A stretch of DNA of 64,000 nt, from assembly GCA_003228095.2 (NCBI GenBank), contig QGNM01000001.1:1-64000 (forward strand). Direction: 5' to 3'. Position 1 is the first letter of the stretch; each line of letters begins with the position of its first letter. Shown here piece by piece: positions 26,482-28,954 of this stretch. The translations under genes were made by a program, and so were the position numbers. Below the pieces are notes generated by a model. The model saw nothing but the letters and a program-made list of their open reading frames with translations. It had not been told where the DNA came from and searched no databases. The stretch comes from Chloroflexota bacterium. GTDB lineage: Bacteria; Chloroflexota; Dehalococcoidia; Lucifugimonadales; UBA2962.

Positions 26482-26988
26482 TTAAACGTTGACCCTGAGC
26501 ACCTTATTGAATTGGGTAGCATTTGGAACTGCAAAATCATGTTTAGGCTCTAAGCTGCTTATCTCATTCAGTATTTCCCATTCAACTCGTGTAAGTTCTT
26601 CTAATTCCATCCTGTACATATCCCTACTGTGTCCCATCATTACTCTTGGCACTTTTTGAATAAAGCCTTTATTAATCAGCGACTGAATCCTGTGGTCAAT
26701 AGTTCTTTGTGCTCCCAAGTCATCCCAATCAGGCCTATCAAACCACTCTGGATATATTTTCGCCCATGTAACGGATTTATCTGACAGCTCAATAATATTG
26801 GAATTTAAATCCAGCTCTGCAAAACCGAATTGCATCTTGTTTTTAACTGCTTTAAAAATATTAGATTTGTGCCGTCTACCGTAAAGAATTTTTGATGAAG
26901 ACTCTCCTCGGTTGGACCAATATTCCAATGATTCATGGTGCCAGCAAAGTAATATCTCAACATCTATAATTTCAAATAAAGGTGTCAT
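26482..26988 (-). CDS. hypothetical protein
   Basis: 168-aa intact ORF downstream of phosphotriesterase-family gene; no family recognised; internal segment TIDHRIQSLINKGFIQKVPR looks winged-helix-like. Confidence 0.6.
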   Translation of the reverse strand: MTPLFEIIDVEILLCWHHESLEYWSNRGESSSKILYGRRHKSNIFKAVKNKMQFGFAELDLNSNIIELSDKSVTWAKIYPEWFDRPDWDDLGAQRTIDHRIQSLINKGFIQKVPRVMMGHSRDMYRMELEELTRVEWEILNEISSLEPKHDFAVPNATQFNKVLRVNV

Positions 26989-27011: not shown

Positions 27012-28073
27012 TTACTTAAATGTTAATAGTCGTTTTGGATTTTCGATCAAAATATTGTCGATATTTTTGGTAGAGAATCCACGTTTACGCATCCGTGGAA
27101 TAATGCTGTCAAGAATATGAATATACCCTCCTCCACCATGTGATACTAAATCAGTTTTTAGACAGACATCCTGGGCAACAACAATTTGACTTTCATACCC
27201 CCATTCTATCAATTTCTCTATACGCTCTATCCTCTGAACGTCAGAAGGAAAGGCTATATCATGGCCTCCTTCTTGTGGGGTATTGGTGTTTTCACTACCA
27301 AAACGATCAAACTCTAGGGTGGCACCGGTCTCAGCAATTTCCTTAACTACTTCCGGAGAATAAGGGAATACATCTAAGTGTCCCATAATTATCCTGGTAG
27401 GATCAGCTCCAGCTTCAATTAAATCATTTAAATGATGCAAAAGCGCGTCTGGATGTCCCCCTGGATGAATAGAAATTGCAGCACCAGTCTCAACTGACGC
27501 ATGCGCTGAAGCTCTGAGGATTTTTCTGGATGTCTCATTTGTTGGCCAGAAATTACCTATCTCTCCGATGATGCCCGATTTAACTCCAGTATCTTTAACT
27601 CCTACCGTTACATCTTTAATTATCGAATCGGTAATATCTTGCTCAGGTTTTTCGTGAATGTCATCAGGGTAAGAAAGTGGAACGTAATACGATGCTCCCA
27701 TTATTATGTTAAGCCCAGTAGCTCGCGACATCCTGGTTAGAGCCAAAGGATCTCTAGCAATGCCATTTGAAGTCGTATCTACTAATGAATTACCTCCAGA
27801 AAGGTAATATTTATACAATTCCTCTGTTTGATGCTTTTCATCGCATAGGTTCGCAACATCTTTGTTACTAAATAGACGCTTCATTACCGAGCCTAAAATC
27901 TCCATGGTCACCGGTTGGTCCACATACCACCGCTCAGTAGCTTCTTCAGGCATGTCAAAATAGCAAGACAAATCAATTAATGAATGTTCATGAGCCAAAG
28001 TTACTCCCATATCATCTGGATCGATTAACCCAAGCACAGTTTGTATTTTCCCTGTCCTCTCTGACTTTGACAC
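27012..28073 (-). CDS. phosphotriesterase-family amidohydrolase
   Basis: GVTLAHEHSLIDLS (HxH), SGIIGEIG, AISIHPGG, IIMGHLD. Confidence 0.9.
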   Translation of the reverse strand: MSKSERTGKIQTVLGLIDPDDMGVTLAHEHSLIDLSCYFDMPEEATERWYVDQPVTMEILGSVMKRLFSNKDVANLCDEKHQTEELYKYYLSGGNSLVDTTSNGIARDPLALTRMSRATGLNIIMGASYYVPLSYPDDIHEKPEQDITDSIIKDVTVGVKDTGVKSGIIGEIGNFWPTNETSRKILRASAHASVETGAAISIHPGGHPDALLHHLNDLIEAGADPTRIIMGHLDVFPYSPEVVKEIAETGATLEFDRFGSENTNTPQEGGHDIAFPSDVQRIERIEKLIEWGYESQIVVAQDVCLKTDLVSHGGGGYIHILDSIIPRMRKRGFSTKNIDNILIENPKRLLTFK

Positions 28074-28109: not shown

Positions 28110-28190
28110 TTAACACTCACATGGGTCGCATTCACATGGGTCGCATGTACAGTTTGGCCTATCACATTTTGGCTTATCAGTTTTCGACAT
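28110..28190 (-). CDS. 26-aa Cys-rich metallothionein-like peptide MSKTDKPKCDRPNCTCDPCECDPCEC
   Basis: Hand translation; SD GGAG 6 nt before ATG (GGAGTTCCTTATG); 7 Cys in 26 aa; CxCxPCxC motif as in bacterial SmtA-type metallothioneins. Not in ORF track. Confidence 0.65.
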   Translation of the reverse strand: MSKTDKPKCDRPNCTCDPCECDPCEC

Positions 28191-28288
28191 AAGGAACTCC
28201 TTTTTTTACAATTTCAGCTTAAGTATATCCAAAGCTCTTAATAAGAGCCATTCAATCTAAAAACTAACAGGAATTACAATTTATTGTT

Positions 28289-28954
28289 CTAATATTTGGC
28301 CCTATCTCTTTTTACATTCCAAGATTCCCAATAAGTAACTTCTTCTACCGACTTTCTTTTCGGCTGAGACCACCTACCTTTAACTGGATACCCAAGAGGA
28401 ATTATTGCCATTGTTAAGGCATCATCTGGAAGGTTAAGGAGGCTTTTAATTTGAGTTTCATTTGTAGAATGAAGCGCTGTTAGCGTTGATCCAATCCCAT
28501 ATGCTCTTGCTGCTAACATTAAGTTTTGAACTGCCCCATAAATAGATGATCCGACTCTAGGATCTTGAGAATCAGCAACATCTCTTAGAACTGGAATAAT
28601 CCATAACGGAGCATCTTGTATATGATTTGCCAGGTGATCTGCGCTCAGGAAGTTTTTTGGCCCTAGTGCATCATCGTCGATTCCAGATAGTATTTCTTTT
28701 CTCCTAATTCCATATACCTTATTCCAGTTTTTAAGATACCAATGAGCAATTTTTGTTTTAGTGTTTTTATCTCTAATCACCATCCATACCCAACCTTGTT
28801 TATTTCCACCTGAAGGGCCTCGTATGGCGGCATCAATAATGTTCCATATAATTTCGTCCGGTATTGGAGTGTCAGACAGGTATCTTCTGGACGGAGTGGA
28901 ATGTAACCCATCAATTAAACTTATGGTCTCAAAGCTTTTCTTATCCATTGACAA
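28289..28954 (-). CDS. nitroreductase family protein
   Basis: HSTPSRRYLSDTPIPDEIIWNIIDAAIRGPSGGNKQGWVWMVI; AYGIGSTLTAL. Confidence 0.9.
   Translation of the reverse strand: MSMDKKSFETISLIDGLHSTPSRRYLSDTPIPDEIIWNIIDAAIRGPSGGNKQGWVWMVIRDKNTKTKIAHWYLKNWNKVYGIRRKEILSGIDDDALGPKNFLSADHLANHIQDAPLWIIPVLRDVADSQDPRVGSSIYGAVQNLMLAARAYGIGSTLTALHSTNETQIKSLLNLPDDALTMAIIPLGYPVKGRWSQPKRKSVEEVTYWESWNVKRDRAKY

Follow-up and report, generated by a model that had tools for sequence, protein, structure and literature searches.

To our knowledge, few bacterial metallothioneins have been characterised. SmtA is marked by the motif CACEPCLC, and MymT is about twice the length of the peptide described here and has His. 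The PDB entry 1T2Y, which we take to be the fungal copper metallothionein of Neurospora crassa, has 25 residues, seven of them Cys, is rich in C-x-C and has neither His nor aromatic residues. SmtA contains a zinc finger and the Pseudomonas metallothionein a Cys9His cluster, and MymT, a mycobacterial copper metallothionein, illustrates metal protection by Cys-rich peptides in bacteria (PMC7387436). Within the 64,000-nucleotide stretch of a Chloroflexota contig analysed here (the window) there is a peptide that is bacterial and Cys-rich like MymT and that resembles the SmtA/BmtA type in being small and Cys-rich, with a C-x-C-x2-C-x-C element that is common to it and SmtA. Unlike SmtA and the Pseudomonas protein, it lacks His, and it is only half as long. 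It is similar in size to 1T2Y and has the same number of Cys (7), but the spacing in 1T2Y is different (C-x-C-x5-C-x-C-x3-C-x-C-x2-C, with Gly/Ser-rich spacers). The features of the locus, in the order in which they would be transcribed, are as follows.

28289..28954, minus strand: nitroreductase-family gene (PF00881; Pfam, ORF), co-oriented with the peptide and 98 nt upstream of it
28222..28252, minus strand: promoter-like block AATGGCT...CTTTGGATATACT, largely conserved upstream of the peptide in four carriers
28197..28200, minus strand: Shine-Dalgarno sequence GGAG, 6 nt before the peptide ATG (read from the sequence)
28110..28190, minus strand: ORF of a 26-aa, 7-Cys metallothionein-like peptide, ATG...TAA (read from the sequence and by family comparison)
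28116..28145, minus strand: two tandem 15-bp units, TGCGACCCATGTGAA and TGCGACCCATGTGAG, coding CDPCE-CDPCE (read directly, with matching codons in congeners)
27012..28073, minus strand: phosphotriesterase-family (PTE) gene (PF02126; Pfam, ORF), GTG start 36 nt past the peptide stop
26482..26988, minus strand: 168-aa ORF without a Pfam match, after the PTE gene in four peptide carriers (Pfam, ORF)

The translation of 28110-28190 on the minus strand is MSKTDKPKCDRPNCTCDPCECDPCEC. It is small and 27% Cys, with C-x-C motifs and few aromatic residues, as metallothioneins in the broad sense are, and it lacks His. Re-reading of the sequence agreed with the first-pass annotation on the ORF, its strand and coordinates, the seven Cys in 26 residues, the CxCxPCxC motif and duplicated CDPCE, the GGAG with its 6-nt spacer and the co-oriented nitroreductase and PTE genes on either side. 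The 15-bp DNA repeat that it had described is also present, as a tandem of the form TGCGACCCATGTGA[A/G] in which 14 of 15 positions are identical and one is mismatched. A single instance of the exact pattern of seven Cys followed by a stop is present in the window, compared with an expectation of 0.00 from 100 shuffles, none of which contained it, and the peptide is present as a single copy in its own genome (1.36 Mb in 46 contigs, 77.5% complete).

The peptide is present in three of the four sampled congeners (G001, G002 and G004) with 80-85% identity to that of the window. Across an 18-codon core, third positions hold 38 of the 41 pairwise nucleotide differences between congeners and there is a single residue change (R/N), giving pairwise dN values of 0-0.05 while dS runs from 0.7 to saturated. 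Of the columns that vary over the final 20 codons, 0, 1 and 12 fall at codon positions 1, 2 and 3 respectively (P about 2e-5). Judged by this third-position bias and the low dN relative to dS, the ORF is a real protein-coding gene under purifying selection. Each of the Cys positions is encoded by both TGT and TGC among family members, with the residue itself invariant. Shine-Dalgarno-like sites precede many of the members; G001 and G002 retain an AAGGAG-type site, and G004 has GTGAGG in its place. The first-pass annotation had proposed an un-annotated metallothionein-like peptide, to be given up if the reading frame or the Cys positions were not conserved in related genomes. Both are conserved, which supports the peptide as real; it was probably left unannotated owing to its length.

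A first family profile, built from seven sequences, identified more members in the window's order together with one in G485, a genome from another order of the same class. With a 19-row core profile, 20 of the 247 genomes of the order gave a match at E <= 0.001, spanning 6 of 97 genera and 4 families, so that the peptide occurs order-wide. The distribution is nevertheless patchy, with most genomes of the order and the congener G003 being without it, among sampled genomes that are mostly incomplete MAGs. The 20 aligned members are 21-37 aa long and 35-85% identical to the peptide of the window. They share the arrangement C-x4-C-x-C-x2-C-x-C-x2-C-x-C, without exception at any of its seven Cys, and none has a His. 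N11 is nearly invariant, and the other positions drift, to identities as low as 35-50%. The motif lies at the C-terminus or is followed by a short tail, which in genus g28 is conserved and ends in SN[ED]TYI or CNETYI; the variant found in g61 is MTKCNNPNCKCDPCNCDPCNC. A phylum-wide profile search of the sampled set, with a model stretched by the C-terminal tails, returned only the peptide's own genome.

Several further observations were made during these searches. A copy in G512 (C16:8143-8205) looks decayed, with one Cys replaced by Tyr and the N-terminal frame shifted relative to the copy in G485, which may reflect sequencing error. Genome size is 0.9-1.9 Mb in each of the 20 carriers, and many of the listed non-carriers exceed 2 Mb, a comparison uncorrected for kinship and completeness. 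Scanning contigs with the Cys pattern gave, among the matches listed (80 loci), mostly poly-Cys or wrong-frame chance matches, and just L020, which is the locus of G117, and L091 look real by eye. The latter (L091:7647-7718) lies outside the Chloroflexota in a Mycoplasmataceae MAG and is a 23-aa Cys-rich peptide, MNNKKCLCNPCTCEKCTCENCEC, with a ribosome site; it had no match in 80 relatives and is unproven as a genuine case. Eight weak matches (L007-L010, L144, L145, L148 and L158) were dropped on reading, having no stand-alone Cys-rich ORF.

The peptide has no significant match in Pfam, NCBIfam, PHROGs or the PDB sequences; in Pfam this holds at E<=0.01 for the window peptide and at E<=10 for six family peptides. 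The bacterial metallothionein profile PF02069 (Metallothio_Pro), a 51-position model, did not match anything in the peptide's own genome, though the Synechococcus elongatus control was positive. The SmtA-type likeness suggested by the first-pass annotation therefore stands as a local resemblance of motif and does not extend to family membership: the profile is unmatched, the His ligands are absent and the members are 21-37 aa long as against about 50-60 aa. Homology to 1T2Y was likewise rejected. There is no significant sequence similarity, and neither phmmer nor profile searches of the PDB, run with the peptide as query, returned a metallothionein, so that 1T2Y is an analogue and not a homologue. 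Metallothioneins are the nearest known kind.

A longer relative, MCNNPECKCSNCTCDPCECSSENPCGCEFDDEQVAPV, is found at 9979-10092 of contig C40 of G002 (L159:2980-3093), with all seven Cys in register and two extra. This 28-kb contig, binned with the congener MAG, looks like phage from its PHROG matches, which include a RuvC-like resolvase (phrog_159) and two IscA-like proteins (phrog_17776) amongst others; the phage relative is thus known from one MAG-binned contig. A tblastn search in phages and plasmids gave no match, although peptides of this sort may be masked by the low-complexity filter. The IscA-like genes are some 440 nt upstream of the relative, and in genus g18 the peptide comes after alternative complex III genes, both of which would fit an electron-transfer micro-ligand whose Cys hold an iron-sulfur cluster and not soft metal ions. 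We consider this highly improbable, however, as the family has no consistent Fe-S neighbours and seven Cys with dense C-x-C are atypical of a 4-Cys Fe-S site, where such an arrangement would be unusual.

By examining the genes around the members we found that the neighbours depend on the genus. The peptide is directly upstream of the PTE gene in all four carriers of the window's genus, where the gene behind the PTE encodes 168-177 aa, but this pairing is confined to that genus. In g18 the genes before the peptide are actD and a cytochrome c gene that by position is actE; members in g28 have a DapA-family gene after them, with a thrS-looking gene in three of the four loci examined; and in g61 and g63 the neighbours vary. 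Opposite-strand genes flank the peptide on both sides in G117. Also in G117, about 2.5 kb from the family member, there is a protein that has a heavy-metal-associated domain (PF00403) together with a MauE domain (PF07291) (L162:1327-2070). An unsystematic look beside the peptides revealed no metal-resistance operon or SmtB/ArsR-type regulator.

The first-pass annotation had pointed to metal supply or storage for the phosphotriesterase, that is, a metallochaperone or metal store dedicated to a co-transcribed enzyme. Motifs expected to ligate metal in a PTE are indeed present in the window protein, namely HxH and, further along, those with His and Asp, and the juxtaposition is constant among the four carriers of the genus. 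In G003, however, the closest PTE homologue (93%) immediately follows a similar leader, the peptide being missing from between the two (L127:1400-1500, on C50), and though there are 17 PTE-matching places in that genome, the peptide was found nowhere by search. As the neighbours differ by genus and this PTE has no peptide beside it, the peptide is separable from the PTE, and a dedicated role, given the unrelated partners elsewhere, seems very improbable. The two ribosome-site segments (AAGGAGTT...ATGTC and AAGGAGTTAACCGTGTC) resemble one another, and it is plausible that G003 may have lost the peptide through a precise deletion between them.

The first-pass annotation had advised looking for the peptide beside PTE and nitroreductase genes in related genomes; the nitroreductase proved not to be a conserved neighbour. 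Where the window has the nitroreductase, G001, G002 and G004 have a divergent FecBCD-type importer, with a metal-chelate-type binding protein (PF01497) and a FecCD permease (PF01032) according to a Pfam run on G001. Such an importer could take up an exported, possibly modified, methanobactin-like metallophore derived from the peptide. Yet there is no evident leader-core division, no maturase was seen adjoining the peptide and neither the window nor any of the other genera examined has the importer beside it, so that a metallophore would be most surprising.

Short Cys-rich ORFs may also act in cis. According to PMC9094748, which cites Canestrari et al, 2020, polycysteine short ORFs in mycobacteria are regulatory, and these too are Cys-rich and lie upstream of another gene. 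The window peptide, 36 nt upstream of its neighbour, could similarly be a leader in which the pace of ribosomes over the Cys codons signals how much Cys is available and governs how strongly the gene behind it is expressed. In this family, though, the Cys are interspersed and not in runs, and their spacing is conserved along with non-Cys residues (N, P and D). Several members also have no co-oriented gene close by to regulate, the next one downstream being on the opposite strand in G117, G485 and G162 and 563 nt away in G111. The downstream genes are outside Cys metabolism, and the leader has no terminator or Rfam match and is no more structured than shuffled sequences (z +0.91). This explanation is very unlikely. 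The leader does contain the block at 28222..28252, which may be a promoter; a scan for the sigma-70 consensus did not find it, and in G003 the PTE that lacks the peptide is likewise preceded by a variant of the block's TTTGxATATACT half.

It would seem likely instead that the window peptide is an intracellular metal-buffering microprotein, a miniature metallothionein, since the Cys spacing is fixed while the spacers drift, and the composition fits a thiolate-cluster metal binder. We infer that the ORF is translated as a free-standing microprotein whose seven thiolates, at their fixed spacing, would wrap a small cytoplasmic cluster of soft metal ions, with Cu(I), Zn(II) and Cd(II) as candidates. 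By buffering or storing metal, the peptide would give protection from it. In the window's genus a promoter just upstream would lead to the peptide and the PTE-family gene being transcribed together, with the peptide's function independent of that neighbour. We see roughly an even chance that these peptides form an as yet undescribed class of bacterial metallothionein, minimal and His-free, with about 21-26 residues (some short-tailed), portable across Chloroflexota contexts, also carried by a phage, and working like the fungal 25-residue copper thioneins.

Going by sequence, the family is probably unlike the bacterial metallothioneins catalogued so far, and it lies beyond the reach of the PF02069 profile. 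The peptides are easily synthesised, and their natural variants are suited to testing how seven Cys choose their metal. If there is a conserved class of 21-26 residues below the usual limits of gene calling, thiolate metal buffering may be under-counted in small-genome bacteria.
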